DNA from: Austropuccinia psidii
Taxonomy: Eukaryota > Basidiomycota > Pucciniomycetes > Pucciniales > Sphaerophragmiaceae
Reading direction: 5' to 3'
Length of the DNA stretch: 64,000 bases
Assembly (NCBI GenBank): GCA_023105745.1
Contig: JALGQZ010000011.1
Coordinates: 32,994,094-33,058,093, forward strand
This document shows, one piece after another, positions 10,856 through 53,197 of this stretch (position 1 is its first letter; each line of letters starts with the position of its first letter). The notes beneath the pieces were generated by a model. It was not told the origin of the DNA. It saw only the letters and a program-made list of their open reading frames with translations, and did not search any database. The translations under genes and the position numbers were made by a program.

Positions 10856-10858
10856 AAA

Positions 10859-19916: not shown

Positions 19917-19917
19917 T

Positions 19918-20690: not shown

Positions 20691-20697
20691 AAGGAAA

Positions 20698-22906: not shown

Positions 22907-22919
22907 AAGAGGGGGATAC
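22907..22919 (+). other. Polypurine tract of the young Gypsy element
   Basis: AAGAGGGGGATAC lies directly against the TGTAAC start of the 3' LTR. Confidence 0.85.
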
Positions 22920-23680
22920 TGTAACAACCATCCATCAGGGGTAAGGGTATTCATTCATACACCCACTCAAACACCTCAAATCAGCAAATCCAGTATCTGC
23001 ATCAGCAGTCAGTTTCAGCAATCCTCATTCTGAAACATGCATACAGTTTGGTACATCAATACAGCCTGTCAATACTTGTACAGGATGGATTCACCCAATA
23101 CAGTTTCAATACACCAGTATGAAACTGTATGATCACTCAAATACACCACACCTCTTGTACAGGTTCTGTACAGCTGTACAAGACCTGTATTGGCCAGACT
23201 CAATTCAACAATCAATTATTCTCATGAAAATTCTTCTCTGGATCAAGGCTGGTGATTCTCACATATACCAGCCCCTCTTTCTCCCCCCTGGGGACTTTTC
23301 CCCAGTTAATTAACTTAGTTTATTTATCATTTCATAATTATTCTTATCCTTATTTTGGGTATTATAATTATTTAATTTTACGTTAGTCTTTGCATTTCTC
23401 TCTTCGCCTGTACAGTATGAGTTGGGTGGCCATATCCTTATTAACCCTTCTCTTTCCATTCTGACAGGTTGAAACAGTGGACTTGGACTTGTTTGTGGTT
23501 GGCTCTTCTATTTCTTATTCTTATTTCTTTTGTTGCTGCTTTTCTTATATTCATTCTTTTAGTAATTCATCTTTAACACTCTTAAGTGTATCTCATCTTA
23601 TCATATCCTTGAGCCCTCCATAAGTGAGTCCCAGTTTACTGAGTGCCAGGCCCTCTTCACTTCGAAGAGCCCCTGTGACA
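22920..23680 (+). repeat. 3' LTR of the young Gypsy element (complete, 761 bp)
   Basis: Starts TGTAACAACC and ends CCTGTGACA. The end is fixed by the GGGCA duplication at 23681-23685. It matches the 5' LTR over 704 bp with two substitutions; its last 57 bp (23624-23680) have no counterpart at the 5' end. Confidence 0.93.
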
Positions 23681-33288: not shown

Positions 33289-33334
33289 CACCAGGGCGAA
33301 TCTTGTGTAAATTGTCAGCGATTGACTTCACATC
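33289..33334 (+). repeat. Left terminal inverted repeat
   Basis: Pairs with 53152-53197 in inverted orientation, with six mismatches over 46 bp. Weaker similarity continues inward (GTCA..TATAAAA-type blocks). Confidence 0.85.
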
Positions 33335-33984
33335 AAGCAAACGTCAAGCAGGATAAAAGTCAAGCTCACGTCAAGCGAATGTCAAGCACACGTCCTACTC
33401 TTGTCTTACACCAAATCCTGTGACATCCACCAATATTGGTTCCCCTGTGCCTTCAACTCAGATTCCTCACCACCTGATCATCCCGCAACCATCCAATGGT
33501 TGGTAAAAATTACACAAGACCCGCCTGTTTGCACAAACACACATCAAAGAGGTCCTTCAGCCAGTCTTGATGTAGGCAGGGGGTTTGACTTCACCAGGTC
33601 ATCCATAAAAGGACTCCGCCTGAGCGGGATTGTCATTTTGCAGGTGACACTTGTAGAGCCCGCCGCACAATACCGCGTGTGCAGGTGCGCTTGTGTGTGC
33701 ATTGGCGTGTGCGCATCTGGGTGCGCAAGGGCCGCTTCCCCTTCCAACATGATGATGGCGCAGTTAGAAATTTTGGCTGCTGTGAAAGGTGAGTGTGTGG
33801 GTCATTTGATCATTGAACTTGGCTTATTCACACTGTACCCAATGTCAAAATAGTAAGTTCTTTGTGGAAATTTGAAATGATGGGCTTTGCTTGTCACAAT
33901 GGCATGTCTCTGTCACTAAATTTTGAGGCAGTTATTTCACTAGCAAAATTGCTAATGAATCTGAGAGATTTGCATTTCTGTAGA
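33335..33984. other. Left subterminal region with GTCAAGC repeats
   Basis: GTCAAGC occurs at 33343, 33359, 33370 and 33381, and ATCAAGC at 33332; clustered short motifs just inside a terminal repeat are typical transposase-binding sites. The rest, including a GT-rich stretch near 33675-33725, has no convincing gene; the 150-codon plus frame at 33401-33853 has no domain. Confidence 0.6.
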
Positions 33985-36900
33985 CTAAATTTCATGAAAT
34001 AATGGCTTTATCATTACAAGCAGCCCACATGACAGAACTTTGTTATCATACAATCCACAGTTACCTTCTATTTCTTCTTCAGATATAATCAAGTGTCCAT
34101 CATCAAAACCAACAGCTTTATAAATATTCAGATGTGGCCAATCTGGTAAGAAATTCACATCAATCTTCAAAGTTTTTAAGATCAGAAAGTTATTGTTCAG
34201 TATGCTAGATGGCTCAGAGACTTTAAAAATCCTAATAATAATACCAAATCGTCGTGAGTTGGCCCTCAGAAAACATATCACACTGTTGCTGACATTTTTG
34301 GATTCAGTTGAAAATATATTGTTCCCAATATTAATGTTTGAAACTGGAAAATACCAAGGTGAGACAATCCTTGAAGTTGGAGGACTTGTGGATTGCACAG
34401 TAGTGTCTAAGCTGATCCAATCAACTATTTCCCTTGTTGCATGAAAATTCTGTAAGTACTCAACCAGGCAATCATAATTTTCTTGGTCATGGCGGGATGG
34501 TTTGTTATATTTATGGTCATTGAACAGGGCAGGTGGCTGTGATTCAAAAAGCTGTTTTATTTCACATGGCACGGATGGGGATTTCAGGAGAACGGAAAGG
34601 TTGGAACATCGACAGATATGTTGAAGTAAGGTTTTATCTATATCATCTATTCAGAGTTGCAAGAAGTTAATCTTATTCAGTTCAGGTGTTTAATCAATGT
34701 GAATATATTGATCTTATTAATTGATGTACATATTTTGTTATTTGTTGGCATTTTTGCAAATACTCCAATCAAGCGCTCATAACCCCATGTGGCTGAGGCT
34801 TGTGCTGGGCCCCAACGTTGGAAGAGTTCGGGAATATGATCAGCAAAATGATGATTTGGTTTACTTTTCTGTTTTGGGAACAGGAGTCGATTGGAAAGGC
34901 GGAATTTTTTCCAATGTTCAGCAAATGCAGTTGCATCATCTATTGAAACAGTCCAACTTGTGGCAATGTTGATAGCACTAATCAAATGGAATGTATTCTT
35001 GGCTAGTTCATTTGCAAGTTCTTCTGACTGACCCATTTTTCTTTGAGTGTTCGCATATTGGTGTACATCTAATGACATCTGTTTACTGAGCATTAAAAAT
35101 GGAATATAGACCTTATATAAGAGAGCCCATTCAGCGGCTTTTAAGCTACCATGAGAGGGGGAACCCATGTTGCGAGGTACTCTTGTCCATGATGAGGGAA
35201 TTATCGTCTCAGATATGATTTGTCGGAGATGCTCCAGAGACTCACCCTTGATCTGGTGATCACTCAGTGCAGTGATATCCAATTCAGTGGGGATGTAATC
35301 CGCATCAAATGAAGGAATCTCTGCAGAACCACTAGATGGATGTTCTGTGTGAGGGGTGGGCATTGGGAAGTAGTTTTTTCGGGTGGAAGTAGTGGGGAGT
35401 GGCTCATTTATTATTTTTGCTGCGTCTCTTCTCAGGGAGCGGGCCTCTCTCAATGTGATTTTATCAAGAGAGCTGTTGGAGGTCATGGAATCTGAGTCTG
35501 AACTGTTGGTGTCATTGGATTTCCTGGCGGACCTGAGGTAAATTTTTGATTTGGACTCTGGAATGCACAATTTGAAAGTTGCATGATCCTTCAAAATTCC
35601 AAGTATTAAATTATGCATTATGTCAAGATTAACCATTCTGGTTGCATCCCAATACAGAAGGTCTTCTAAAATTGAATACCGCACTCCATACTCAGAGAAA
35701 ATTGCTTGTCTTTGTTGTGGGGTTGCCCGAAGCAATTTGGCAATGGTTGATTTATGATTTTGATATGAGCGTGTGTAGTGAAATTGAGGACCAATTTCTT
35801 CAATTTGAGCTTTGTGAATGGTGCAAAAATTACAAAAGTGGTTGCCTGAATGGGAAATAAATCCAGTAAGCTTGCGCATGGCAACCACATCCGCAATGGC
35901 TGTGAGAATGGCAACACGGATAAAGGATCCTGAAGGACCTGTTGAGGTGGGTGAAAAATGGTAACCTTGCCATAGCTCTTTGAGCTCGTTGATGAGTGGC
36001 ATTAATAGATAATTCAATTGAAGGGAAGTTGGCTCCTTCGGACCAGGGATGATTCCTGCAACATAGACATTCTCTGGCTTCAATCTTTCACTTGGGGGGA
36101 GATTAAGACAAATAGGCATGATAGGTCCAATTCTGGCCAACCGGGTGGACTTTCCATGTGCATTAAACCAATCCACATAAATGGAGAAGGCCAATGCACC
36201 AGGAATGGATATTTCTAGTGCCAGTGAAGCGTCTCCAGACCAATCCATCCCAGACGTCACGTTTTTGGGGAATCTTCGGGAGTTTGGGATTGTTGATGTT
36301 GATGCAGAATGTCCATAATTCCAGCCCGCTGGAGAAATCTGGCAAGCCAATTTTTGAATGGTTGATAAATGAAATGTTTTGTTGGTATAAATTTTTGCTT
36401 CATGTTGGTTGTTTTTTGGGTGCGGGGTTCAAATGAATAGATGAATTTTCCTAATGATTGTGTGCAAGGGGGATCATGATCATTTGGGTCATTATGGCAT
36501 TGACAGTGGGGTTGGTCAGTTGTGACTGATTCAGTAAGGCCATTAAGAGAGAAACATTGAGGACAACATATATAGTTTTGAATCACTGGCTCCAATTGGA
36601 GATGTTCAAATATGGTACTCAGATCTTGAGGAATATGGAATGCAGGAATGGGGGGACCACTGGAGCTTGAGATGCTGGACTTGATCAGCAGGTTGAGGGC
36701 GGGGTTGAGAATGCGTGAAGCCCTGCGGGGTATATTATACCTTAATGATAGAATGGCAGATATTATCATTCCAAGGTCTTGTGGAGGAAGGGTTTGACTG
36801 CTGCTGTATGGTTTCTGTGCAATTGAATTGAGCCCCGGTGCTGTGGAGAAGGTGCTTTGGGTCAATGGTGAATAATCAGCTGGGGATATTTGATCCAATA

Positions 36901-37111
36901 GAAGTTGTGGGCACTCAGATCCTGATGCAGAAGTAGGGATGTTTGGAAGAGATGTGGGTGCAATGGTTGATTTGAGCTTTTTAATGTGCTGTTTATATTG
37001 GAAAGGTTTGAAGGCAACTCCAGGCCTATCACCCTCAGGGGAAGAGTGTGTTTGAGTTGAGCAGTGTTGACACATGCATATACGCATTGAGGAATAGCGG
37101 CGGGTTGTCAT
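33985..37111 (-). pseudogene. CACTA/TNP2-like transposase (two frameshifts)
   Basis: N-terminal part 36257-37111 starts MTTRRYSSM with a CMCQHC zinc-ribbon-like motif and a second Cys-rich patch (YICCPQC). Next come a conserved RDVWDG..WRRF piece in a different frame (36250-36300) and the core 34730-36300: LAFSIYVDWFN, PICLNLPPSER, IIPGPKEP, LLMPLINELKELWQG, a GNHFCNFC zinc motif, LDIMHNLILGI and HGSLKAAEWALLY, then PNHHFADHIPELFQRWG and GYERLIG. An 83-nt intron (34647-34729, GTACAT..TAG) leads to the C-terminal exon 33985-34646. The motif series matches the TNP2/Plavaka-like transposases of basidiomycetes. Two frameshifts within about 100 bp near 36240-36350 break it. Probably the mobilising enzyme of the 33289-53197 element; exact clade unresolved. 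Confidence 0.82.
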
Positions 37112-38072
37112 TGTTGCAGGAATTGGGAGTACGGTTGGTTTGTGTACAAATATCTATGGCTGATGTGAAAGTGTTTAGGAGTGTTATTAATTGGAAAAAA
37201 AATTGAGTGATTATTTATGAAGGGGGAGATGATTCGAGCCATCTGAGAATTTTATCCCATTTGTAATGGTGCGTGAGCTGCAGCTGATGGAGTGTAACAT
37301 GTCTCATCTGGATGGCGGAATTGGTTAGGAGTTTAATTGGGTAAAATGCCATGCTGCTCAATTCTCATACATATTCTATTTTATTTACACATGGCGATAC
37401 TGCGGTTTTGACCCTTGAGGGGTGTTCCAATAGGGATGTGTCAACATTGATTTGAGGGGATTGACATTCAAACCATGTACGCTGGCATGCCATCGTACAT
37501 GACTTAAACCTTATTACAGACATAATGATATAACTCTATTACATAAGGGGTTGGAGTGCAGCTAAAGTCTTGGTATTTGGTTTGAGTGCAGCAGGCTTTT
37601 AATCGGTTGGAATGTGATTTGGATTGTCTCGCCTTTATTGAAAAGGTGATGTCTCTTTTGTGGGTAAATCCTTCATGAATATACCCCTTTACAGATGTAC
37701 AATGCTGTGGAATTTTGATGCATATATTGGCAGTTTGGATAATTCACAAAATGTGACAATGGGGAGGCAGAAATTTTACCAAATATGATTACTCATGGAT
37801 GATGGGTCCCCTTTGAGATCAAGGAAATATTACATTATATGGTGGTAGGCCGTGCCGGGTGGTTTCCGATAAAAGCGGAGGAGCTCAAGAGGAGGCAGGG
37901 AGGATTCTCCTAAAAAGAGGCTTATTGGACTTCCACGCAACACTTAGTTCCAGCTATTAATAGAATTTCTCTATTCTAAATTTGAAAATATTTCATCTCA
38001 TATCACTCTATTTTATCATAATACTGAGGTGTTTTATCTAGTTAAAAATATTAGTGTACTTTTTCGGCCCTT
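37112..38072. other. Divergent promoter spacer between transposase and the next gene
   Basis: No coding region. It separates the minus-strand transposase and the plus-strand gene at 38073 and contains the palindrome at 37475-37500. Confidence 0.5.
37475..37500. repeat. 26-bp palindrome, member a
   Basis: ATGTACGCTGGCATG pairs with CATGCCATCGTACAT, with one mismatched pair, around a GGCATGCC core. Related palindromes lie at 43355, 47713 and 49612. Confidence 0.75.
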
Positions 38073-40131
38073 ATGTCATCTTTCAAGTCACATAAATCCC
38101 GTTCAGGTTCTGTTCATGACTCAGATAGTGAATCTAGCATAGAATATGTTCAAACACAGTCACCATTGAGTCCCAACATTCCTCTCACAACCCCTATCAC
38201 ATCCTTCATGAATTTATCAGGTCTTAACATTGATGTGGGCAATCCAAAGGCTCCAACTTCAAGCACTTGGTTGATCCCAAATATTTCCGTCACTCCAATT
38301 CCCCCAAATCCCACTAATACACAAACGCATGTGTCTCAGGGGCCAGAAGGCACACCTCAAATCTCATCACACGCTAATCCCCAATCAAAATTTCCACGTG
38401 AGTTCCTCCTTAATCCCGGTCGGAATCCAGTCGCATCCCAGGATCCCTTTGGCCAAAGTAAACAGCCAACCCTCAATATTCCATCAGGATCTCAGGTTCA
38501 TGTGGGTGATGAAAGGCGCGTGGATGGGGGGCAACAAAAAAGACCATTGGAGAATGTAACTTGGAGTGGTCTGTTGGAGGGAAATCCAGGATTGACGCTT
38601 CATCAAAGTAAGTCATTTTAATTTCGGAGTATAACCTTTTTCACAATTTGATATGTTTGTTTCATGGGTTAGATATGGCACCTAAAGGCAAGTCAGTCCG
38701 ATCTCAGGAGCCAATTGAAGATTGTGAGTATGACCAGTCTTCATTAATTTTTTGATGTGTTAACTGAGGATGTGCATGGCAGGTGATGAACTTTATGCAT
38801 CTTCACCTCTGGTCCATAAAGAGAAAGTCACTGGACGTCATCATCCATATGCCTCCAAACCAAGAACAGCTCATGCCAGTTCATCAAGAGAAAAAATGGT
38901 GGATGATGAGGATGAGAACATGTCTCCGACTCAAATGGAAACAAATGATGAATCAAGGAGGGACAATTTCACGCCGCATGAGCATGGCACTCAGTCAAAT
39001 GAGTTCACCCATCCTCAAATGGGCCTTGCCCAGAGTATGCTTGAACAATCCGAGGTCAGACAGCAAAGGAACCAGGCTCATAAAGCTCACAATGTGGCGA
39101 AACGTGCAAGCCAGAAGGAGCAACAAAAATGGCTGAAAGCAGAACTTCCAGAGAATGTCCATGGAATGAGATCAGCAGTACATGCACATTGCCTGTTCCT
39201 ACTCAAAGTTAGGGATAAGGATTTTTCCTCACTACCAGCACCACCAAGCACAGAAGAGCGTGAAATTGCAATTCAAGTGGCTGGTCATCTTGGTTATGTC
39301 CCCAAGGATGCTTTCAATGAGCCATCAACACAGGTTCAGTCTCAGGGCTTCCAAAGCTACTGCAAAAATGAGCTCCACAAGCTAGGACTAAAGCGATTCA
39401 CTTGGGACTGGGAGAGCTCATGGCAACATCCGTTCAATGAGCTGATGTCTATGGTGTTTTACCGTACATTCCGTCTTGCACTGGTCAGCACCGAGTATCA
39501 TCATTACTGTTGGAACAAGGATCATAATAACTATGGGGTTGTGGCGGCTTTAATGGAGCGATATTTCACTTATTTGAAAAGATAATGGAAGTCTATTCAA
39601 AAGGATGCCGAGTATTTGGTTAAAAAGAAGGAGAATCAAAAGCTCGCGAAGATTTGTCAAAGGGTTAGCTAATGTATCTCTTCTTCATTGTGAGCAAAGA
39701 CTGATGATGATCTACTTGATTATGTGCAGACCTGTGAGCGCCGTCGTGAATGGTGTGATATGGCTAATTTTCCCATTCTAGCATCACAATTCAATGACCC
39801 TCCAGTATGTTCAGATACTGAGGAGGTACTGGAAAATGGCCGTCAAGTTTACTGCAAAGTGGGATTATGCTGGTGCTCCCAGTTATTTAATGAATTGGTA
39901 TTAAAAATGGATCGAGACATAGAGTTTTGTAATCGCATTAAAAAAAAGGGTAAAAAAACTATTGATAGATTGCCAGAATTACGATCGACAGATGATGGTG
40001 ATATTCCGGAAGGCTTATCATTTCAGGTATTTGATCAAGATTGGCTCAAAGGCTGTAGTAAGATGCAGACTAGCGCCCTCAAGATACTTGACATGCCAGT
40101 TATTAGGCCGAATGGTGATGCTCTGCAATAA
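38073..40131 (+). pseudogene. Rust-type transposon-borne protein of unknown function (one in-frame stop)
   Basis: Exons: 38073-38607, 38673-38723, 38783-about 39665, and from about 39731 to 40131. Introns have GTAAGT..TAG (38608-38672), GTGAGT..CAG (38724-38782) and GTTAGC..CAG (ending at 39730) borders, and the frame is kept across the first two. The N-terminus is Ser/Pro/Asn-rich with an acidic SDSESS patch. The third exon holds a folded-looking region (HCLFLLKVRDKD .. GFQSYCKNELHKLGL .. TWDWESSWQHPFNELMSMVFYRTFR .. LMERYFTYLKR). An in-frame TAA at 39583-39585 interrupts it before WKSIQKDAEYL; the last exon starts TCERRREWCD. I recall this family as abundant and transposon-linked in A. psidii and Puccinia, without a known function. 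It diverges from the transposase across the 37.1-38.07 kb spacer. Confidence 0.75.
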
Positions 40132-40469
40132 CTTAGTAAGATAAATGTATAGCACCGTTACAAATTAACATTTTGTGAATTATTTGTGCAGGTATAATAC
40201 AATCTGAGTATTATTTCTTAAAGATGCAACAACTTGCTAAATATGTCAGAATATAGACAATATGAATTGGAATGTATCACCGTCTCCCTTAGAAATAAGA
40301 CTCTATTGCTCATTTTCATTGAGGAAATATTGAAGGAGTTTGATCCAGCTCATGGTGTTCATAATTGTGGACCTATGCCAGGTTGAACAAGAGTTATCAA
40401 CTTGGTCAAACACAAATTATATAATATCAGTAAGGCTCACGCATTTAATGATTTTTTCTTTTCTTGGAC

Positions 40470-42854
40470 CTATTGGTGTTTGGAAAATGGCATTTCCATA
40501 AGGAAGGATTTTAGAATAGCAATACAATTAGGGTCAAAGATGATCTTGAAAGGTACCTTCCGCATGTTGACCTCAACTGAATGAGGAGTGATATAGTGGA
40601 TGACCTTTACAGGTTGTTGTTGGCCAATATGATGGAGTCGATCAACAGCCTGAGCCTCAATGGCTGGGTTCCAATTGGGCTCCTGGAAATGTGGATGTCA
40701 GGGGCCGCAAATCAGGGCAGAATTTTGGGGGTCCCCTCACCATTAAATAGACCGTATTAGCACAAGTTATATTGAGGCCAGCTCCAGCTGCGGCAATGGA
40801 TGCAATCAGTACTTCACATTCAGGATTATTGAAGAAATTCTCCAGTGCCTTCTCCTGTGCTCGTGCTGTAATTGTTCCATCAATTCGTGCGGAAAGGATA
40901 GAGTGATGGGCAAGTGCAATACCAATTCTACAATATGAAAAAGTCAGATGTATTCAATTGGTAATGGATGCATATTAGAATTAATGCACAAATCTAGAAA
41001 TTGGGTCCATTGGGTATAAACCACTGATTTGGTTGGACCACACCTTGTTTGTTTGTTCTTCATTAAGCTTTGTAGGAGGTGTGCAATTTTACTACTCATC
41101 ATGCATGTTTCCACATCCACAATAGTTTGTGTGATTGTTGGCGAGTTATCCTGAGTGCTCCTGCCCTTGGGGTCTTCCAAATCCGCCTCCACAATTGTGT
41201 TAAGCATGATGTGATGGTTACAACATATTCGCAGCTTATTAATATTTCTGAAAAATTCTCCTGGTCCTTTGCTTTTGGATTATAGGAATTCTTCATATAA
41301 TATGGAATATTCTTGCTGCATGGTCAGGTTGAGTGGGAGCAGCTCATAATGATGGCTAATAGTGGGGAGGGATTCGAGATGTGTGGTTTTGGTGCGGCGC
41401 AAACTTAAATGCCGCAACGCCAAATGCAAGATATCATTGCAACCTTTGGATAGACTACTCAGGATGAATGGTGACCAGTTATCTTGATCGGCGCTCTGGG
41501 GCTGAGTGATGAATGATATTATGCCCAAAAGGTCATAAATGGTGTTGTGAATAGGTGTGCCCGTTAAACATATTCGACGGGATGAAAGGAGGCTATTAAT
41601 GGCACGGTGAGTGGCAGTGTATTGAGAGTGAATATAGCTATAAGATGGGGCAGAGGTTATTGGATATAAAAGGTAATTTGAATCATTTAAGATCAGACAC
41701 TCACTGTGCTTCATCCAAAATTATATGATGCCAATTGATTTGAAAAATGAATGATGTAGAGGTATTGGTTTGCTTAAATTCTTGGGTGATATTATTGTAA
41801 GAAGTGATGATGATATCATTTTTTAAGATGTCGTCTTTTGATAATGAGTGAGGAGTGGGACCATGGTAGATTTTGGAATGCAGCGCTCCAGCCTGAGCAT
41901 GCTTGGATATTTCTGATTGCCAGTTGGTAATTAAGCAAGGGGGGCAGATGATCATGGTGGGCGTGGAGCGATGGGGGTTTGCAATCATCCGCTCCTTGGA
42001 GGTACCAATTGGAGCAATGGCCTGAATGGTTTTACCTAATCCCATATGATCCGCAAGCAGTCCTCCAAGAGGGGTATTGGCCGAAAGGGATTCAAATGAG
42101 CTAACGACCTTGTTTGTAATGATGTGCCTGGCATTGAAAGTGGATCCTGGGGGTGAGGTGGCCCAAAGGTTACGGGCTGATTGGCCATTGGGGATTTCTC
42201 AATCCCAGAGAAAAGCTAGTCCGGTCTTTTGATGAGGGAGGAGGGGGGTTTGAATAATGGCATGGGGAGGTCTGATCCACTGGGTAATTGTATCAGTTTT
42301 TGCTTGGAAATCAATGATGAAACAGCAGGATATGAAACTGGCGTCAAGTTTGAACCTGGAAATGTCGGAGTAAAGAGTTGACATTGACTATGAGTATTAC
42401 AGTCATATTCTTTGGGCATTTTAAGCTTGAAATCTTGTGTTCGAAAGCTTTCCATTATGAATAAAATGTTTGGATACCATGTGAAGAACATCAATGCTAG
42501 ATTGGGTTTCTGAGATGAGGAGGGATCATTTGCATCAGTCATAAATACTCCCTCAACAAATAATATTTGAGAAGGATTGGATTGGCAATTTTCAATCCAT
42601 GCCCCACCAGGACCACAGTGCATGAACATTTTTGGTGCCCCAAGGAATGGTATCAACGTTTTGGAAAGGGTTCCAGGTAGAGAGCCAATAGCATGCTGGT
42701 GATTGGGGAGATAAACAAATATGTTGTGTTGATTGTGCCATATGATAATCCAAGAAGCTAAGTGGGAATCCTCAGAATTTAAGGCTATATCACTATTTAT
42801 TTGAATACGAATATTAATCATCCCAATGCAAAGTGGTTGTGAAGGGGTTGACAT
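40470..42854 (-). pseudogene. SNF2-family DNA-dependent ATPase/helicase (broken)
   Basis: N-terminal region 42216-42854 (MSTPSQPLC..) frameshifts near 42270 into LLPHQKTGLAFLWD, followed by an in-frame TGA at 42199-42201. The helicase motifs follow: GLLADHMGLGKT (usual ADDMGLGKT, so one Asp is His), TMIICPPCLITNW, IIITSY, and ILDEA, completed to DEAH-Y by removing a GTGAGT..TAG intron at 41638-41704. Then LTGTPIHN, an in-frame TAA at about 41277-41279, KSVVYTQWTQFLDL, an intron 40928-40989, SARIDGT, ASIAAAGAGLN, an intron 40683-40740, and EPNWNPAIEAQAVDRLHHIGQ, ending at TAG 40470-40472. Looks Rad5/Rad16-like, without an obvious RING. A chromatin-remodelling cargo protein, inactive here. Confidence 0.87.
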
Positions 42855-43221
42855 GATGGCTATTTTAAATTATTTGGGGACAGTTGGAAATTATATGATC
42901 GGGAGGGGTTAGCTAAACGGAATGAAGACAAATAGGCGCAGGTGGGGAACTTATATGAGAGGCAGCAATGGGGTCAAGGGGGGATGGCCTGTGGTTACGT
43001 GCATGGTCTTGATGGGGGTGGGCCTCTTGGGATCATAATTTTCATATCCAATTTGGGGCATATATCAAGGCAAGGTGGCCAAAATGTGGGTGCACTGATA
43101 TGACTGCTGGATCTGCAGCAAGGTACGAAACCTTTGGTGGAACAAGGTTGACATTAGCATATCCGAAAGTGGGTGGGTTGTAGCAACTTATTGTGGAGGG
43201 CATATTAGAGGCATGCAGTCA

Positions 43222-43245
43222 TGTTCGCTGGTGTGACAGCGAACA
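43222..43245. repeat. Inverted repeat with 9-bp perfect arms
   Basis: TGTTCGCTG, six-base loop, CAGCGAACA. It lies 110 bp from the perfect palindrome at 43355 and has a similar layout. Confidence 0.7.
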
Positions 43246-43354
43246 ATGAGCGTATCCTCCCCAGGTTAATTGTTCACAGGGACCTACTGGGCAATGTTTG
43301 CGGTTTCAAAGGGCAATCTCACTGTGGGGATGTTTGTGTGTGGGCGGGTGAGAT

Positions 43355-43380
43355 ATGTTTGGTGGCATGCCACCAAACAT
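43355..43380. repeat. 26-bp perfect palindrome, member b
   Basis: ATGTTTGGTGGCA followed by its exact reverse complement, with a GGCATGCC core. It is followed by GACTT, as is member a at 37501. Confidence 0.85.
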
Positions 43381-44305
43381 GACTTTGGTTTTGCCTGAAG
43401 TTTTTTGCTGACTGATGCCTACTGGGCTTCCAGGGGGGAATGTGTGGGATGATCAAAGGGGGCGCCAGCCGTGAGCCGTGATCCACATATACATTCACCC
43501 CTATTGCGTTTGAGGCGAGTACTAATCCACCAAGATTGGCATCCAGGTCTTTGCCTCACGCGCGTACAAAACTCCGGCGAAAGAGGCCACCCACCCAAGG
43601 GAATTTTTGGCTGCAAGCCAGGTGCCACAACTTGCACGGGGCGTGTGAGAACGTGAAGAAAATGACACGCGGTGGGAGATACCCACGCAAACATAGGCTG
43701 GGATTATTCTAATGTGGATGAGGCTCAAGCAAATCCACACTGATTGGCCTCAGGTTTCCACGCGCAAGCAGGTGAGCGTCTGCAGTCAAGCTGACCACCC
43801 GACCAAGAAACTAGCCGGTCGGAACACTTGCAGTAAAATGTCTTCCAGGCGTGTGAAAGTTGCCTGTGTATGACCCGTTGGGGGGTGCGTATGAAAGCGT
43901 GTGGCTGCCCGACAATGAGCACACGCAATGAACAAGCAGGGCCAGTCATTGTTTGCCCCGAAAATGGCACCGGATGGAATCCACTGTTTGTGTATGACCC
44001 AAATAAACAGTCATCCCACTATGACCCACTTACATTAACTTAGATTACATGCGCATCTGTGCCATAGTTAGGCAGAGCTGTCCAGCAAGGTGCATCAAAG
44101 GGATGCAGGTGAGATATATGACTCAATGGCTTGACGTGATTGGATGTTACATCGTTGAACAACTTTTTCTCTGCCCTGCAGCATTCATTTACAAAGGTGT
44201 ACTGCGTACTACAGTGTTGGCTGTACAGATTAGGAAGGTGTAATACTACTTGAGCCTGCATGCACCTTCCGATCTTTTGCATATACGTAGCTCATGTGCC
44301 ACATG

Positions 44306-45049
44306 CTCAGCATTGTGTTTCACCTGATTTGCACATGCAAGCTGAGCATGTCATGGTCAAACGCACTGTGTGGAAGTGCTCAGTAAAGCCATGGAATGAA
44401 CTTTTTTTGCAATAGTTCATTGGAAGGCTCAGTTTGGAGCACTTTACCAAAGCGTGTGAAATGCTGCACCTGGCTGAAATGTCACCCGATGCTGTGCCAA
44501 ATGCTCAGATTGTGGGCATACAAAAACGACTGAGCAATGGCTCAGCACGGCGCATTTTATATTGTTATATCGATTGTTCAATTACTGTGCAATTAAAATG
44601 TTCAGCCACTGAGCATTTCAATTATGACCCGAAAGCAAACCTGAGCAATGGGTCGAGGCAAGCTCACACTGTATTCACTTGTCTTACAGCCCCCCCCCTT
44701 TGTTCAAACAATATGACCAGGCCATACGGCCGGTAATCTCCCTGCGGTCATTTGTGACCAAATGCACCGGGTGCATTTCTGCATGGGTCACTTGTGCAAT
44801 GCACACTCAACAAGGGCCTCACGACCACCCTCCTGGGTGATTGGGTTGCTATTTAAGGAAACAAAGGGGATTTGACTGAGCTTGACAATTCAATAAATTG
44901 CAATACTCAGCCAGACCCCCATTCTTCTTCTGCCTCATGCGAGCATTTCACTTCTCAGTTGCAGCATTCACTGAGACTCAGCTTCAATTTTGCCCATACG
45001 CCTTGAAGCTGAGACTTTTGCGGGTGCTGCAACTGCTGAGATCGTCTCA
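44306..45049. promoter_or_regulatory. Dense cluster of CTGAG/CTCAG pentamers
   Basis: About 16 copies of CTGAG or its complement CTCAG, often extended to CTGAGCA or GCTCAGC, occur in roughly 745 bp; chance would give one or two. The cluster ends about 440 bp before the start codon of the zinc-cluster gene at 45492. The copies face both ways and are not in a fixed tandem unit, so this looks like a binding-site cluster rather than a satellite. Confidence 0.6.
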
Positions 45050-45491
45050 GCTTCACCATGGTATAAAAGAAGATCTTCACACAACACGCCCTTCACTTTC
45101 TTTCTCACCCGCTCCACTTTGTTCAACCTCACCCGCGTTTATCCTTCTTGTGCGTATTCCCCTTGGTCTTCCTGCCTTTCTACTTTTGTCTTTCGCACTC
45201 CACTAAACCCACTCCCCTTCCTTTTGCCTGTTTGTTTCTTCTTCTGATCCTTTCAGAACCTCCCTTCTATCCACCTTGTGCATTACCTCTTTTTTTAACT
45301 TTTGTCAACATTATGTACCGATATTAATACTTATTTTTCTTCACAACTCTTTTCCAGACTTTTAAAAACTTCGGACTAGAGCATTCTTATTTTGTTTCCG
45401 TTTTAAATTTATAATTCATCGTATGTCTTCATTTTCTCTCTTGATTGTTTACTTTGTATGCAGTTACTAACCTCAATTGTTTTGTTTTTAG

Positions 45492-46823
45492 ATGTTGTGC
45501 AATTTATGCACCAAGCGGGGTATCCCCTGCATTCGTTCCTCGACGACGAATGACGCTTGTGATGCTTGCCGACAAGCACACAAGAAATGTTTGTTTGTTG
45601 TCCGCCCCTTCCGACCACGAGGCCAGAGGAGCTTGCGAGGACTCCTTTGTGGTCGACAATGACGAAACCATTTCCGAGCGTGAATGGATGCCAGGCCCCC
45701 AAACAGGCCAACGGGAACAATTCCGGACGATTAGCCCTGTCCCCTCCAGTATTGATTTGTCCACTCCCCCTCCTAGGCCACCATCCGATGGTCACTTCAC
45801 TCCTTGACCAGAGCAAAGTGATTATCCGGCCGATGAAGGATGGCAATGGCAAGAGGACATTTGAGCTTGGGCTGATCATCACCATGTCTTGTCACCAATG
45901 GGATTCAAACACCAAAGTAAGTTTTCTTTCTCCTCCTTATCTCATTTCTCTTCACGCAATAATACTGACTTTTTTCCATTACTCATAGAACAAAACCCCC
46001 CAAATCCCCCCCGACATGACTCTCCCGTTCCTAGTTTGCCTCGCGAGCAAACCCCCCGGCAACCCACTCCAGGCCCGAGTGGCACCTGATGGTCTGAGGA
46101 ATTATTCCGCGGTAAGCAGCCAAAGTTTCATTTCATTTTCACTTTCACTTTTGAGTCGAATGAACTGACTCTTACTCCTTTTTGAGAACCCTCCCGAACC
46201 GAAGAGCCACCTATTCCTGGCCCAATTCCATCGTCCCAACCATCTGAGGACAATACGGCTCGTGAGCCAGAACCTGAGGTGGCTCCTACGCAATCCACGG
46301 AGGAACCTTATGGTAAGTCACCCCTTCTTTCTCTTTGATCCATATCCACTTTTCCTCATTTTTTCTTTGACCGTCTCCAGATCGTCCCGTCACTCCTCGC
46401 TCAATAATCATCATCGACGATACGCCCGTCGGATCCCCCCTTCTTCTTCACCGACTCCACCATCTTCCCCTCCACTCCTACCCCGGTTCCTTCCCAGGAT
46501 CTTCCTCCCATTGCCCCCGAGAACCCAACCTCCTCCTCCCCCCGGTGCCAAGCTCCTCTCATTCCCATGAGGACGCTCGCCAGGAATTCACCAACCTGCG
46601 ACCGACCCTAATGATTCCTCGAGCCATCGTCCACGAATCGATTAACCAAATCTTGTTGGAGCATCGCCGCTTGCTCCACATGATTCCTTTCGTGGATGCA
46701 ACTCATCGAAATGAGATGCACCGGGAATTCCGGGAGGAACTAAACTCCCTCCTTGCCCAGGCACTGGAGGCTTATCCAAAGGAGGACATCACCGGGATAG
46801 TCTCGAAATTCTTAGAAAAATAA
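45492..46823 (+). pseudogene. Small Zn2Cys6-like protein gene of the transposon (frameshifts and a stop)
   Basis: The ATG at 45492 follows a TTTTTAG acceptor. Cys3-x2-Cys6-x6-Cys13-x9-Cys23-x2-Cys26-x6-Cys33 has Zn2Cys6 spacing (CNLC..CDAC..KKC). A one-base shift between about 45600 and 45640 diverts this frame to a stop at 45660-45662; the family sequence continues in another frame (EDSFVVDNDE .. PPRPPSDGHFTP), then another. Further exons are joined by introns 45917-45988 (GTAAGT..TAG), 46112-46186 (GTAAGC..GAG) and 46313-46380 (GTAAGT..CAG). An in-frame TGA lies at 46087-46089. The last exon 46381-46823 is open, with IIIIDDTPVGSP, then LRPTLMIPRAIVHESI and FREELNSLLAQ, ending at TAA. I recall relatives in A. 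psidii. Probably a DNA-binding cargo protein, inactive here. Confidence 0.75.
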
Positions 46824-47221
46824 AAATTTAAAAAAAATGTCATTATTTCCACTTTTTATAATTTGTAATACTTTCTTTTAAATAAATTATTTGTATTCAA
46901 TTATTATTATGTTGAATTTCTATTACATTCTTTGTTCACGTAAAAATTACTTATTTCTTCCTTAGAGAAAAACCCTGATTGTGTGAGAATTATTTTTGTA
47001 AGTGCCCCACCAAGAGTTTGAGTGAGTATTTGTTTTCGTGAACCTCTTTTTCCCAAAATGAGCCAATAGTGGCCGTTACCGTCTCCTATATTTTCTTCTT
47101 CCATGGTTTAGAGCCATATCCATTCTTAACTGTAAAAAAGCGGGAGCTTCCCGCATGTGAGCAATCCACTCCAGATTTGTGAAACATGGCCTTTCCTACG
47201 GTCACACGCTATTGATATTAC
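46824..47221. other. AT-rich spacer after the zinc-cluster gene
   Basis: Contains AATAAA-type polyadenylation-like sequence near 46880 and no supported gene. Confidence 0.4.
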
Positions 47222-47700
47222 TCATGTATTGAATTGTTTAAATTGTCTGGAACCTTCACAAGCGTAAGGATTGGCGTGTGACTTGTCTGGATCCTGCACA
47301 GGCATAAGGATTGGCGTGTGAATTGTTGGGAGCCTGCACAGGCGTAAGGATTGGCGTGTGAATTGTTGGGAGCCTGCACAGGCGTAAGAATTGGCGTGTG
47401 AATTCTCGGGATCCTGCACAGGCCAAGAAATTTTCAGCATTGTGGGGAACCTTCACAAGCGTAAGGATTGGTGTGTGAATCGTCAAAAGCCTGTACAGGC
47501 GTAAGAAATTTTTAGCATTTTTGGGAACCTTCACAAGCATAAGGATTGGCGTGTAAATTTTTGGGAGCCTGCACAGGCGTAAGGATTGGCGTGTGTAGCG
47601 TTGGCACCCCGCATAGGCGTAAGGAACTTTTAGCATTGTCGGAACCTGCACAAGCATAATGATTCGCATGTGAAGCATTGGCATCCTGGACAATAGCAAC
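47222..47700. repeat. Minisatellite with a 40-bp unit (about 11 copies)
   Basis: Units carry GCGTAAGGATTGGCGTGTGA, then TTGTTGGGAGCCTGCACAG or variants; some units have AATTTTTAGCATT instead of the middle. The overlapping frames predicted here only reflect the repeat. Confidence 0.9.
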
Positions 47701-47712
47701 AAACCAGGACAT

Positions 47713-47738
47713 ATGTACGATGGCATGCCACCATACAT
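47713..47738. repeat. 26-bp palindrome, member c
   Basis: ATGTACGATGGCATG pairs with CATGCCACCATACAT (two mismatched pairs), with a GGCATGCC core, directly after the minisatellite. Confidence 0.75.
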
Positions 47739-47850
47739 AATCCACTTCACCCCTTTTTCATGTGAGACACCCCATCTCCCGCACTTGAATCCATCCAATC
47801 CTGGTGTCTATTGTTCCCTGCCTTACCCAACACACATTCAAATCTCCTCA

Positions 47851-49059
47851 TTATTTGAATTGGCATGAGATTGTATTACCATCCCTGATTTGATAGCCGG
47901 CTCTCTCCCCAATCTCATAATAGCCATGGCTTTTTTGGCACATTGTTTTTGCTAACCTGCTTGAGCATTGTGCGGACATACCCACTAGTGTTGTGCTTTC
48001 GTTGTCCTGTGCTGGATCAGTATAATGAACAAATGTACTACTGGCCCACACTACCTGAATGAGCCCATGACATGCGGATAGATCAATCCAAAAATGCTCA
48101 TTTGGGAAAATCAATTTTCCCCCTGTACACCGCTTTTACGCATGTCTTTGAATTTGGCCAGTCCGCTTATCAGCTTGAAACCACCATCCCGAAGCATAGA
48201 GCGATGCATCCTTATCAACATGAGGTGCGTTTTTGAATCCATTCATGGTGAAAGTGAATGCGGAAGCAAACTCGAATGCACCCTGATTTGCGGGCATATT
48301 GGCTTCATAGTTCACTTGATCAAAAGATGGAACCCCCAATGAACTGTAGAAATTTTGAATCTTCTCAAATAAATTATCCCCAACATATTGTAAGGATTGA
48401 CCTAGAATGCAACCCACCGAGCTAAGATTGGCACCTTGGTTCTGCCATTCATCTTTTGCGTTTTCAATTTTCCCAACACTCCCATACAGACCAAATTGCT
48501 CATTCTTTGTGCTGCATTTGCGCCACCCAATTGCGAAAATAAATCCCTCCAGTAATGCTCCATTGGTTGCAATCGGGTCGGTGAATCTCTTTTCGCGAAA
48601 TAAGAATTGTGATAATTCATTCCATTGATTGACCTCAACTTCCCTCATTGTTGTGAATGGTCGGAATTCGACAAGGGCAATGAGTAATCTGGTTGAAGAG
48701 AAAATTTCCACACGGCCAAAGTGAATGCGTTTGATCTGATTGACATCCACAAGCCTCCGAATTTCACTTGGGGTCATATTTGCTGATACTGGCATTGATA
48801 TTTGTGCTGTTGGGCGAGAGGAGGAAAACAACCTATTCATTCGGGTCGTTTTGCGCTCATTTGTCTTTTGGGATCTGCTACTATTCCCGAGTGGTTGAGG
48901 GATCACTATGTGTTGAAGCACACAAGATATCAGATACTGCCAAGGAGCTTTCTTCGGCACACATCCTTTGACTTCCCTGTTGGAGCCCACATGACATTGG
49001 CACAATCTGAACTGACTAAAGCCAATGTTCTTCCGTGGGGCCCAATGAGGGTTCCACAT
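47851..49059 (-). pseudogene. TET/JBP-like 2-oxoglutarate/Fe(II) dioxygenase (one in-frame stop)
   Basis: One minus-strand frame of about 402 codons, broken only by TAA at 48136-48138. The double-stranded beta-helix signature is present: FTMNGFKNAPHVDKDAS gives the H-x-D iron ligands His280 and Asp282 (codons at about 48216-48222), and the distal ligand is likely the His in TFVHYTDP (about 48025-48027). WIDLSACHGLIQVVW precedes it. This matches the Tet-like 2OG-Fe(II) oxygenase family expanded in rust fungi. Family members oxidise 5-methyl-pyrimidines in DNA or RNA; the substrate here is unknown. The N-terminal about 75 residues look less conserved, and the true start may be internal (MNRLFSS). 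The stop lies between the two halves of the catalytic fold and would remove the last ligand. Confidence 0.8.
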
Positions 49060-49781
49060 AAATGTGGAAGCATATATACACTGAGATTAAGCAAGAAACT
49101 CACACTTTCCTTCCTCAGCCTGACGCTTTCTCGCCAGTTACCTTTTACGCTCTTTTCCTTTTTTTGTGAATGGCATGCTTTCAGCAGAAAATGAAATGAA
49201 ACCGAATGATTACTGATTTATTAATATCACCTAAATTGAATTGCGGTTGATGAATCTTTTTTGATTGCGGCTAAAAAGAAAGATCACACCTGACCTTGGC
49301 AAATTCACGATCTCAAATACCTGAACCTGAAAATTGCAGTGGATAGTGCATTATTCAATTTTACACATTGATGTTCCCATGCAATCACTTTCCAATCCAA
49401 CCATTTGGAATATTGCAAGCACACGCAAATGCAATATGCATCCTGCTGCGGATCCCTAGCTATCCTAGTCCTCTTGAAAGAAACAGGAACATTTGGCCTA
49501 TTATGGGCTGGCAGGAAGTGATAAACGCGACTTCCCGCAATGCCCCCGCGTGTGCTACTCGCGGGCACAATGCCTGACTCAGCTTGCGTCTTGTCGGAGT
49601 CTTTGCAATGATGTACGGAGGCATTCCGCCGTACAATTACTATTGGTACTCAGACTGTGGCATCCGGGCAGTAGTAGGATAGGAAGTCATGATTATTAAA
49701 TTCATAAATCACTTTGTAAAATTAAATTACAATCTATCTAGTACAAAGCTAATCTAAAACGGGTCAATCCTGGTTGTGAGT
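49060..49781. other. Spacer upstream of the dioxygenase gene
   Basis: No supported gene; small frames on both strands overlap. Contains the palindrome at 49612-49635. Confidence 0.4.
49612..49635. repeat. 24-bp imperfect palindrome, member d
   Basis: TGTACGGAGGCA pairs with TTCCGCCGTACA (two mismatched pairs). The outer arms TGTACG/CGTACA are those of members a and c. Confidence 0.65.
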
Positions 49782-51946
49782 TTAGCTGACCTGGGTACCG
49801 TCAAGGTGACCGCGTTTCGCCACCCAGGCATCACCAAAGTCTAATACTAAGCATCGTGCAAATTCAAATCTAAGAGGTACAGTGGGTTTAAAAGACTCTG
49901 ATGAGAAGAAACTTTTATTCAGTAAATTACATATATACTTATTAGTACATAGCCACACTGGCTCCACTAGATTCTTACCCTCTGAAAGTTTTGCGGAAAT
50001 GTAAATTAGTGATAAAGCCCCTTTAACTGAGCTTGTTCTCCAGTCATCTGAGCATACCATCAAACCACAAACCCCCGCCGCACAGAATGCCGCTAATATA
50101 CCATAGCAAATTTGATTTATTCCAAGATTCTTGTGACACGCCAAAAGATCTTTGATGGCCTCATTTTTTTTGAGTTTGTGAGTTTGCCTTTGATGCCATT
50201 AACTTCGACCTTTGTATGTGCACATACCATGTTGTACGCAATCATCAAATGGATAACTGTATCCATTAGATCCTCCAGGTTCTTGTGCGGCTTTGTGGAT
50301 ATCTCATTGTCAGCCCCGCCACCTTCAATGCTGAGTTGGGTTGCACGTTGCTTCAATTTACTCAAGCAGGAGGCAAGGTATTCAACTGCCCCTGTTAGAG
50401 TCCAAGAGGATCGGTCAAATTTGATGTTGGTGCAATCACATCGTATGAGACTAAGCTAATGGATTCAAATATAACATTTGCCCAAAGATGTTTAACTGGA
50501 TTGGCGGGGTAAAGAAGGCTCTGAACCATTTTGAAGAAGGAGTGTTCAGATTTTGGGAGATTCTCTGGAGGTTTAGCTGATTCCTTCATCAATTTGAGAT
50601 TCCAAATGTTGTGATCAAAAAACGCTTCTGTTTCGGTTGGCTTAAAAAAATCTAACCCTGTATATTGCAATTTATATCACCAGTCAACAGCCAATAAACA
50701 TGTATCACGCACAAAGATAAAACTCACCTCCCATCTCAAGGTCCTCCAGCCAGGCCGACATTTTAAGCTCTTGGTTACTGATCACCTTAATACCAACAGG
50801 CAGGAATGTATGAGCATCTTTTGTTGGTAAATTGTCCCATCGATTTTTGTAAATACTATTGATATTATCAATCCCCCTTTTCCATGATTGTTGAGTAATA
50901 TTGGAATGATAATTCAAAATGCCTGCAAACTCTTCCATGCGGGATAAAAATATTCCTTGAAAAGTAGCAGACGATGACACTTCGGGCTCAGGGTCAGGAA
51001 CTATATCAGTAATATCTTGTCCCATTGTATCATGTTTAATTGTTTCCCTTTCTTGAAAGGCTTGAATATTCCGAGAGGCGGGAGGGGTTGCATCATGCAT
51101 TGTTTCATTTGGTATCGGGGGGCTTTCAGTATGTGGAGCTTCATCATGGATTTTTTCATTGAGTATTGGGGGGGTTCAGTATGCGGAGGTTGATTATCAA
51201 TATGGTCCTCTTCAACATTGATAATTTCATGACCTTGATCGCAAGAATTGTTTGCGGCTTCAAAGGTACGGCGTTTTTTGTTTGGTTTTTTGGTCGCATG
51301 TATATTTGGTCTTTTTCCTAATCCTTTGCCTGGAAATCCAATGACGACTCGAGATCCTTTAGGTAGAGATTCTCCTACGTCCACACCTGCCCATATATTG
51401 TAAGAAGCTATTTTTATCAACTTTGTTTTGAATTAGTAATGGACTTACGGTTCAAATCCATTTTGAGCAGGCTCATGGCTTCAGCAATCTTTTGACGCAC
51501 ATAATCAGGAATTTTACTATCATTTTGGATTTTTTCGAGCCTTGGGATTGTTTGAGCAATGTTGGGAACAAATTGTTCCTTGGATATAATTTCCACCTCC
51601 CCACTGAAAATTACATCATCTTGCCCATCATCTTCTGTCGGTGCACAAGGTTCAACAGTCTTTTCCTTCTCATAACTTTTGAAATTCGGTTTCTGAGAGC
51701 TTGGAGGCTGATCTGAAATAAAGGCTATGACACAATATCAGGTTTTGGGAGATTAGAAATATTCAAGATGGATGCATACTCACATTCTGGAAGAACTGGT
51801 GGATCTTGATTATCTTCATGAGACTGGCTCTCTACTTCAATGCCTGATTCACGACTACTGGCAATATCAGAGATTTCACTTCCACTCTCTGGGGCTGAAG
51901 TTGGTCGTTCATTGAATTCATGTGAATTTCCCGGGGTTTGGGCCAT
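49782..51946 (-). pseudogene. Transposon-borne multi-exon gene of unknown function (frameshifts)
   Basis: Exon 1 starts MAQTPGNSHEFNERP at 51946 and is acidic and Ser-rich. Introns with clean borders follow: a GTGAGT..TAG intron near 51727-51785, a GTAAGT..CAG intron near 51384-51449, and a GTGAGT..CAG intron near 50658-50727. The middle contains a basic, NLS-like KKPNKKRR and a tandem PHTEPP / PHTESPP repeat. Folded-looking parts are FFDHNIWNLKLMKES and the C-terminal VCGLMVCSDDWRTSSVKGALSLIYIS .. ARCLVLDFGDAWVAKRG. Frameshifts lie at a run of seven C on the coding strand (51168-51174), near 50400-50430, and at a run of eight A (50164-50171). The homopolymer shifts could be assembly errors. 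I do not know a function; it is the right-most cargo gene. Confidence 0.65.
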
Positions 51947-52479
51947 AGCGGAGGTAGTTTATTAAGCAAATAGATGGTGACAAGTTGATTGATAACTTGT
52001 TTGAAGATTTTTGAATAAAAAGATCCAAATTGAAGAAAAAAGGTGCAAGTAAAATAATTGCATTTGCAAAATGCAATTTGTCGGGAAATTGAAGGAGGTG
52101 ATGTTTTGCAAATTATTTCATATCATGCAAATGAAATCACTTCCCTGTGAGACATTGAATAAAGTTGACTAGTGAGAAACCTACTAAAGTCAACTTTTGA
52201 ACTATTCAACGCTCATGAGGTAAGGACTAAGCAAAGTGTTCCATTTGAATGATATGAAATAAAATGGTTTTGTCGGGGAAACAGGAGACACAATTCTTGT
52301 CTTAAATAGTCCACTTATTAGGTTTTAATTTGTGAGTCTCATGATTTAAACCCTAACCACAACATTGTGAATATACTGACCAATTTCCCCTTAGGTCCTG
52401 TTGGCAGAGAAGGCCACTCAGCATATTTCGCCGATTGCGTTCATTGTGTACGCCAACAAGCCACCATACACTATGGATG
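51947..52479. other. Promoter-side spacer with an inverted repeat
   Basis: Upstream of the minus-strand gene ending at 49782. At 52056-52078 AATTGCAT and ATGCAATT flank TTGCAAA, a 23-bp inverted repeat. No gene. Confidence 0.5.
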
Positions 52480-52860
52480 TAGGACGGAAGCGTAAGGATA
52501 AGTCATGTCGGGAGCATGTTGAGAGGCACTCCGCGAGCGTAAGGATAAGTGGTGTCGGGAGCATGTCGGGAGGGCACCACACAAGCGTAAGGATAAGTGG
52601 TGTCGGGAGGGCACTACACAAGCATAATGATAAGTGGTGTCGCGAGCATGTCGGGAGTGCACTCCACAAGCGTAAGTATGGTAAGCAGTGTCTGGAGGAT
52701 GTTGGGAGGGCACTACACAAGCGTAAGGTTAAGTGGTGTCGGGAGCATGTCAGGAGGGCACTACACAAGCGTAAGGATAAGTGGTGTCGGGAGCATGTCG
52801 GGAGTGCACCACGTGAGCATAAAGATGGTAAGGGCAGGGGTGTGAAAGCGTAAGGAGTGG
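52480..52860. repeat. Minisatellite with a 48-bp unit (about 7 copies)
   Basis: Units carry CGTAAGGATAAGTGGTGTC, GGGAGCATGTCGGGAGGGCA and CTACACAAG, with length variants of 37-51 bp. Reading frames on both strands here come from the repeat. It shares the AAGCGTAAGGAT core with the array at 47222-47700. Confidence 0.88.
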
Positions 52861-53151
52861 TGAGGACGGAGATGGGGGGGCAGTGTCGGAGTCTCATCTG
52901 GAGGGCGGTGCGGGCTTGTAAGCATGCGAAGCATCAGGGAGGATTAGGTGGGGATGCGGAAGCCAATGAGGCAAAATTACCCAAACATTGTGAATAGTGT
53001 TGAAATGGGTTTGGGCTTTGAGTGACATTCTCATGTGACACATGTGACGATTGACATTGTCTTGACGCTGACGTGATGTGACCCACTAAATCCAGTGACT
53101 ATAAAGTGACACTAACGCGACTGAAGCAAGATTTTATACTGACAGCGGTGC
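52861..53151. other. Right subterminal region
   Basis: Contains ATTGAC/CTTGAC-type motifs near 53047-53070, related to but weaker than the left-end GTCAAGC cluster in inverse orientation. No gene. Confidence 0.45.
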
Positions 53152-53197
53152 GACGTGAAGTCAATCGCCGAAGATTGACACGAGATTCGCCCTGGTG
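53152..53197 (-). repeat. Right terminal inverted repeat
   Basis: Ends TTCGCCCTGGTG at 53197; reverse complement matches 33289-33334 at 40 of 46 bases. The flanking duplication AGAAAATA follows. Confidence 0.85.

Follow-up and report, generated by a model that had tools for sequence, protein, structure and literature searches.

Transposons of the EnSpm superfamily that carry a TET gene and end in CAC..GTG have been described from rust fungi, with escape from silencing proposed as the benefit (Kojima 2025, PMC12730594). The accessible parts of that report include related EnSpm families from Austropuccinia psidii and state that the function of transposon-borne TET is not experimentally validated. 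Transposable elements of this host are hypermethylated according to the accessible part of a second study, through which A. psidii methylation data exist (PMC12774611). Here we describe a 64-kb stretch of the A. psidii genome (C11:32994094-33058093, GC content 34.8%; genome of 1,015,390,075 bases in 84 contigs), referred to as the window, in which positions 33289-53197 are a single insertion into an old Gypsy element. The inserted element is of the EnSpm/CACTA type and carries a transposase and five linked cargo genes, among them a TET/JBP-like dioxygenase and an SNF2-family ATPase. Judged from sequence, it is probably an autonomous-type transposon of about 20 kb whose genes form a co-selected package that serves to keep it expressed in a genome with CpG methylation.

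The boundaries of the insertion are marked from both sides. The inverted arms are 46 nt long and complementary at 40 of 46 positions (87%), which ranks them first among the 16 inverted pairs listed in this region. On the left, a related Gypsy polyprotein match extends up to 33262 (residue 268, E 8.5e-9) and on the right it restarts at 53223 (residue 286, E 3.9e-6, 50% over 44 codons). Because the inverted arms enclose the point at which the old Gypsy is interrupted, they delimit one insertion of 19,909 bp. The first-pass annotation of this DNA had proposed both the 46-bp termini and the resumption of the Gypsy pol reading on the far side, and both hold. Searches with the terminal 312 bp gave 39 further matches on the left at 93-96% identity (best 40 of 3399 candidates scored) and 39 on the right at 96-97% identity (best 40 of 2308 candidates scored). 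Subterminal repeats, typical of CACTA elements, are present as GTCA clusters directed inward at both ends, compared with a mean of 0.72 and a maximum of 4 GTCA per 200 bp in the element body. The element, its ends and its six genes are as follows.

33289..53197: whole element, EnSpm/CACTA type, decayed copy, 19,909 bp (terminal inverted repeats, interrupted Gypsy, colinear with copies c1, c6 and y2)
33289..33334, plus strand: left terminal inverted repeat, beginning CACCAGGGCG (inverted-repeat search)
33313..33384, plus strand: left subterminal GTCA repeats, 5 in 200 bp (motif count)
33985..37111, minus strand: transposase, tnp2/Plavaka-like (Pfam Transposase_21, 5.7e-12; frame changes near 36.2 kb)
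38073..40131, plus strand: X1, function unassigned (open frame reading; one stop near 39.58 kb)
40470..42854, minus strand: SNF2-family ATPase/helicase, about 4 exons (Pfam SNF2, 5.8e-27; stops near 42.2 and 41.3 kb)
45492..46823, plus strand: Zn2Cys6-like protein with a proline-rich middle and probably several introns, tentative model (cysteine spacing by eye)
47852..48840, minus strand: TET/JBP-like 2-oxoglutarate-Fe(II) dioxygenase with HxD motif, start codon tentative (Pfam PF20515, 8.1e-34; in-frame stop near 48.14 kb)
49755..51946, minus strand: X2, function unassigned, several exons (open frame reading)
53020..53179, minus strand: right subterminal GTCA repeats, 11 in 260 bp, pointing inward (motif count)
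53152..53197, minus strand: right terminal inverted repeat, ending CCCTGGTG (inverted-repeat search)

Assignment to a transposon class was based on the ends of other copies. Six other copies were sampled as 25-kb stretches and two young copies (y1 and y2) were added; for ten and then five further records the ends were taken, and for copies c4 and y2 the right end. The right end lay outside the fetched stretch in 8 of 11 records of one batch and 1 of 7 of another. All ten other records with both ends read carry exact 3-bp target-site duplications: ATT in c1, c4 and C5, TTA in c6, TCA in C9b, ATA in C2, y2 and one C10 record, and TAA in two C10 records. The two TAA records are the same insertion within a duplicated segment, which leaves nine independent insertions. 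The termini read 5'-CAC..GTG-3', in most records as CACC[A/G]GGGC...CCCTGGTG, and Plavaka termini (CATCA..TGATG or TGT..ACA) did not occur in the records read. Taken together, the 3-bp duplications, the CAC..GTG termini and the tnp2/Plavaka-like transposase therefore identify the element as EnSpm/CACTA and not KDZ. The first-pass annotation had instead inferred an 8-bp duplication and implied a KDZ-type (Zisupton/Dileera) element, on the strength of seven agreeing bases among the eight that flank the window copy. Among random site pairs, 0.15% show a 7/8 match and 1.0% match equally well at any of the lengths tried. The flanks of the window copy, ATA and AGA, do not form an exact 3-bp duplication, and alignment of both flanks to the related Gypsy favored no duplication length from 0 to 12. 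However, 8-bp agreement in the other copies reaches only 1-5 of 8 (nine records counted), the transposase matches tnp2 and Plavaka models, and no KDZ transposase model is among the Pfam matches of the window copy and the other copies. The 7/8 agreement is thus a near-match, and the KDZ type with 8-bp duplications, refuted by the ten other records, retains almost no credibility. In y1 and y2, the left ends have G at terminus position 5 (CACCG) and the GT-rich tract in the first 0.6 kb is longer than in the window copy.

The order of the six genes, from left to right transposase (−), X1 (+), SNF2 (−), zinc-cluster (+), TET (−) and X2 (−), is conserved in the end-to-end copies read. Copies c1 and c6 follow the window element over its full length, each with one nested insertion. 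Copy y2 is also colinear, with a left 0.3 kb at 89%, a differing GT-rich tract, then element positions 387-19544 and a right terminus with its ATA duplication. Within the fetched stretches, c4 and c5 are colinear on either side of a nested insertion, and c2 likewise up to a second break near element position 7688. In copy c3, colinearity extends to element position 12609; at that point, within the zinc-cluster gene region, a sibling element has inserted in reverse orientation. Copy y1 is colinear to about 45.6 kb, where it breaks off, and is 99.4% identical to y2 over 12.9 kb. Thus one large transposon with a transposase and five linked cargo genes, as first proposed, is what the copies bear out, including the conserved gene order. 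Termini enclosing the transposase alone, with the cargo scattered elsewhere, were not seen in the copies read, deletion derivatives not having been searched for. Among the matches listed, six SNF2-TET pairs share a strand and lie within 9 kb, where chance would give 0.13 within 12 kb; a single duplicated segment accounts for two of these pairs. The copies near 29.82 and 29.99 Mb of C10 share flanks and target duplication, and their SNF2 and TET are offset by an identical 169,209 bp, so they probably represent a segmental duplication and not two insertions. A stretch of about 370 bp (window 44541-44911) is single in the window copy and tandemly doubled in c6, y1, y2 and the c3 sibling.

Three of the genes are supported by Pfam domains, as the initial annotation had anticipated for the tnp2-like transposase, SNF2 and TET/JBP-like genes. 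The transposase of copy c2 matches Transposase_21 (1.5e-14, 54.2 bits, cut-off 28.6) and Plavaka (28.3, cut-off 26.3), while that of the window scores 24.3 against the Plavaka model, under the cut-off; a comparison of the transposase with viral contigs gave no match. The SNF2 frames contain GLGKT, DEA[H/Q] and QAVDRLH, which we take to be SNF2 ATPase motifs, and copy c6 matches Pfam SNF2 (3.7e-30) and Helicase_C (7.4e-7). The TET gene of c1 matches PF20515 over profile positions 3-207 of 211 (8.2e-44, 150.6 bits), and the HxD motif of TET was seen in frame as HVD. The zinc-cluster gene, also proposed at first, stands in part. Six suitably spaced cysteines (C-x2-C-x6-C-x9-C-x2-C-x6-C) were recognized by eye in other copies, whereas the Pfam Zn_clus match in copy c3 (E 0.088, 13.4 bits) is below the cut-off of 21. 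X1 and X2 gave no Pfam match above cut-off in the parts scanned, and a single-sequence AlphaFold2 model of X1 (predicted local distance difference test score 44) was not used. In the window copy, the transposase is frame-shifted and stops interrupt X1, SNF2 and TET (frames read by eye), whereas some other copies are open where this one is broken. In both young copies, y1 and y2, the frames of the transposase (836 + 221 aa), X1 (201 + 456 aa) and the SNF2 exons are open; in y2, X2 and the zinc-cluster gene also show long open frames, and TET contains one frame change. Among the matches listed, which favor intact genes, 93 of 105 for SNF2 exon 1 and 92 of 108 for TET are stop-free (c6 and c1 queries included). 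A nested second transposon was considered as the source of the cargo and rejected, as a scan within the element for terminal inverted repeats with target-site duplications gave two candidates, which no further structure supported, compared with 0-1 in each of five shuffled controls.

Selection on the genes was assessed by comparing changes fixed between lineages with those private to one old copy, with an expectation matched for trinucleotide context and gapped columns dropped. Copies y1 and y2 together formed one lineage, represented by y2 only for TET, X2 and the zinc cluster, and were set against three to six older copies including that of the window. Outside CpG, 72 of 152 fixed changes are nonsynonymous compared with 116.1 expected (ratio 0.28, P 1e-14), whereas private changes are close to neutral (388 of 528, 411.2 expected, ratio 0.79, P 0.01). 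At CpG, the nonsynonymous counts are 8 of 24 fixed (15.0 expected) and 122 of 183 private (123.7 expected). The deficit among non-CpG fixed changes is significant individually for the transposase (25/54, 39.5 expected, P 2.6e-5), X1 (15/35, 27.2 expected, P 8.4e-6) and SNF2 (11/29, 22.0 expected, P 1.7e-5). For TET, variants were additionally compared in 21 sequences, consisting of c1 and 20 fetched of the 108 listed matches. Shared non-CpG variants include 15 nonsynonymous of 30 with 23.1 expected, and the deficit lies in those found in two or three sequences (8/17, 13.5 expected, P 0.003) with a similar tendency in those found in four or more (7/13, 9.6 expected, P 0.09). Non-CpG singletons are 54/77 nonsynonymous (57.0 expected), and all five stops are singletons. 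Since fixed changes are conservative and private changes near neutral, the transposase, X1, SNF2 and, through its shared variants, TET are selected. On balance, these four genes are maintained while the element moves, with decay beginning after insertion. Such selection on the cargo suggests that the element may spread by undoing host silencing.

The second line of evidence is CpG content. The observed-to-expected CpG ratio is 0.52 in the element compared with 0.07-0.15 in the rest of the window; each full kilobase of the element has at least 0.30 and each flanking kilobase at most 0.31. Across element segments the ratio ranges from 0.31 (c4) to 0.64 (y2), with 0.58-0.64 in the two young copies and 0.31-0.62 in older-copy segments. 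Three large insertions nested in copies, called long terminal repeat (LTR)-like from their repeats alone, have ratios of 0.105-0.151, best direct-repeat pairs 98.8-99.8% alike (a second pair in c2 is 98.0%) and stop-free stretches of 1,059-1,904 codons. Two small nested insertions of unassigned kind have ratios of 0.162 and 0.177. As these insertions lie within copies and hence are younger, yet are CpG-poor, insertion age alone does not explain the CpG content of the element. CpG transitions are also rarer among fixed than among private changes, at synonymous sites (16/96 compared with 61/201, P 0.016) and in noncoding sequence (14/101 compared with 67/291, P 0.063; five of six regions, one being without a young copy). 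CpG retention is consistent with TET shielding of the active lineage and also with a recent arrival. From selection and CpG retention together, we infer an anti-silencing role.

A repeated palindrome offers a possible point at which such a role would be exerted. The 24-bp pattern TGTWYRNNGGCATGCCNNYRWACA, derived from four element sites, matches six times in the window at no more than three mismatches compared with 0.04 expected. All six lie in the element between genes, and outside the element the window has none at this threshold.

37476..37499, no strand: 24-bp palindrome, transposase/X1 interval (pattern scan)
43222..43245, no strand: palindrome upstream of SNF2, 3 mismatches (pattern scan)
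43356..43379, no strand: palindrome upstream of SNF2, all 12 arm positions paired in the window copy, c6, y1 and y2 (pattern scan)
47714..47737, no strand: palindrome past the 3' end of TET (pattern scan)
49612..49635, no strand: palindrome upstream of TET (pattern scan)
52447..52470, no strand: weak palindrome upstream of X2, 3 mismatches, 6/12 paired (pattern scan)

Five of the six precede a gene start by some 350-770 bp, the other lying beyond the TET 3' end. The young copies have one CpG in each arm of the palindrome; in y2 the arms retain CpG and pair at 9-12 of 12 positions at five sites, the sixth being poor. Zn2Cys6 proteins often bind inverted CGG triplets, and such triplets occur at two palindrome sites of y2. 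A strict form of the palindrome has 3,180 sites in the genome, and a reversed control has 0. The first 50 sites listed (all on C1, 4.4-22.5 Mb) form 27 clusters, and 20 of the 23 neighbor spacings below 22 kb are near 1.9 kb or 4.5-5.0 kb, which are spacings within the element. The six SNF2 or TET matches listed in this C1 range all lie within 6 kb of a palindrome, compared with 3% of random points. Scaled from the palindrome clusters, about 1,700 copies would hold one or more exact sites, and no fewer than 1,060 if three is the most that a copy has; the estimate is rough, as the palindrome could also occur in related families. Family size in this one-gigabase genome thus seems to be of the order of a thousand copies or higher.

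The palindrome is a plausible candidate operator. In the proposed mechanism, the transposase would cut and paste the element from its termini, and the Zn2Cys6-like protein or another element protein, such as the transposase, would bind the palindromes upstream of the genes. SNF2 may then open chromatin or nucleosomes at these sites, where the TET-like enzyme could oxidize 5-methylcytosine. The outcome would be expression and mobility, and the active lineage would evade both silencing and CpG decay up to the death of a given copy. A more specific form is tentative and, in our estimate, has the odds somewhat against it: a self-contained epigenetic escape machine in which the zinc-cluster protein itself would bind the palindrome and recruit SNF2 and TET, so that the transposing lineage would stay unmethylated with its CpGs intact over evolutionary time, unlike the other mobile elements of the genome.

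Several results weigh against a co-selected anti-silencing package and bear on its rivals. Fixed non-CpG changes taken gene by gene are not significant for TET (7/12 nonsynonymous, 9.2 expected, P 0.12), X2 (13/19, 15.9 expected, P 0.07) or the zinc cluster (1/3, 2.3 expected), and shared CpG variants of TET have no deficit (21/37, 23.3 expected). Among variants shared by old copies, a comparison with few variants, SNF2 has no deficit (13/19, 13.4 expected) and X1 little (5/7, 5.6 expected), whereas the transposase has one (7/17, 12.8 expected). Copies y1 and y2 were picked from the best SNF2 matches with open frames, a choice that excludes stops but not amino-acid changes, and no copy was read with all six genes intact, since TET is frame-changed in y2 and y1 ends at about 45.6 kb. 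The lack of an SNF2 deficit among old copies would fit cargo genes that were passengers, captured once and copied along without function for the element, and the decayed genes of the window copy and all six other older copies read, together with nearly neutral private changes, agree with this. Nevertheless, the passenger explanation is disfavored and we consider it very improbable, given the conservative young-versus-old changes in X1 and SNF2, the conservative shared non-CpG variants of TET and the high proportion of stop-free SNF2 and TET matches among those listed.

A different question is whether the high CpG content results from TET protection or from a recent arrival of the lineage, by horizontal transfer or a late burst, in a CpG-depleting genome. 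Dead copies do gain CpG transitions (183 of 711 private coding changes), so any protection does not reach them, and the higher ratios of the young copies relative to older segments also fit recent arrival. The rarity of CpG changes on the active lineage speaks for protection, but demanding agreement of all old copies removes CpG sites preferentially and the fixed-private contrast is therefore partly bias. With the nested, younger LTR-like insertions so depleted in CpG, recent arrival in place of protection is a possible explanation that we hold to be rather less than likely. The chemistry may also differ from demethylation, with TET and SNF2 making another modified base or aiding DNA repair after excision. 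The TET gene has one match among PDB sequences, at E 3.9 and taken as chance. The N-terminal exon of SNF2 matches RAD5, a snf2/rad54 helicase and remodeller ATPases alike in the PDB, which would allow a repair role, and the accessible parts of PMC12730594 describe PU-type TETs as uncharacterized. Demethylation would be the simplest benefit in a methylated, CpG-depleted host, going by the accessible part of PMC12774611, and we regard the other chemistries as unlikely. A package that keeps the element expressed in a CpG-methylating genome thus remains the explanation we favor.

Other features of the element and the window are recorded here.

47228..47692: degenerate tandem repeats of about 40 bp between the zinc-cluster and TET genes (repeat families D1-D3)
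52488..52841: degenerate tandem repeats of about 48 bp by the right end (repeat families D4-D5)

Window positions 13513-23623 are a young Gypsy-like LTR retrotransposon with LTRs (13513-14216 and 22920-23623) 99.7% identical, long open frames at 14809-16197 and 16182-19913, and a CpG ratio of only 0.135 in its coding part. Two 1.26-kb stretches (9578-10842 and 28001-29265) are 97% identical in the same orientation, and the old Gypsy remains beside them lie in opposite orientations.

Among known systems, the closest functional parallels are TnpA of maize Spm and the VANC proteins. Spm/En is a CACTA element with subterminal repeats, and its own product TnpA counteracts methylation of the element; TnpA is not a TET-family enzyme, and Spm/En is not known to carry SNF2 cargo. 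VANDAL elements are of the MULE type, a superfamily other than EnSpm, and we know of no TET or SNF2 in them. Like the element described here in its suggested role, Arabidopsis VANDAL encodes a sequence-specific anti-silencing protein, VANC, according to the accessible part of PMC10398659. Closer in structure are the TET-bearing EnSpm transposons of rusts, which, in the accessible parts of PMC12730594, share CAC..GTG termini, 3-bp duplications, a Plavaka-similar EnSpm transposase and a linked TET/JBP gene; the three named families there are from P. striiformis. The same source describes IS3EU, PHISTA, hAT7, Dileera and ESTA elements of rusts in which a TET gene of the PU type likewise occurs, accompanied in some by a third protein or an alpha-kinase; their transposase lineages differ, and their duplications are of 2, 6, 7 or 8 bp. 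The first-pass suggestion that the linked set may be undescribed therefore needs division, as TET-bearing rust EnSpm elements are already published, whereas the SNF2/zinc-cluster/X1/X2 package, and also the palindrome array and CpG contrast, were not found in published titles and abstracts. Both "SNF2" and "zinc" are absent from the main text of PMC12730594, and the family may be catalogued in its supplement or in Repbase. Relative to the published TET-bearing EnSpm elements, the locus has a larger cargo, an array of palindromes resembling operators, evidence that its genes are selected together, and a CpG signature. A chromatin remodeller and a possible regulator here accompany TET, under what appears to be measurable purifying selection, and the CpG content of the element is sharply unlike that of the younger elements nested inside it, which makes the anti-silencing hypothesis directly testable with A. 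psidii methylation data.

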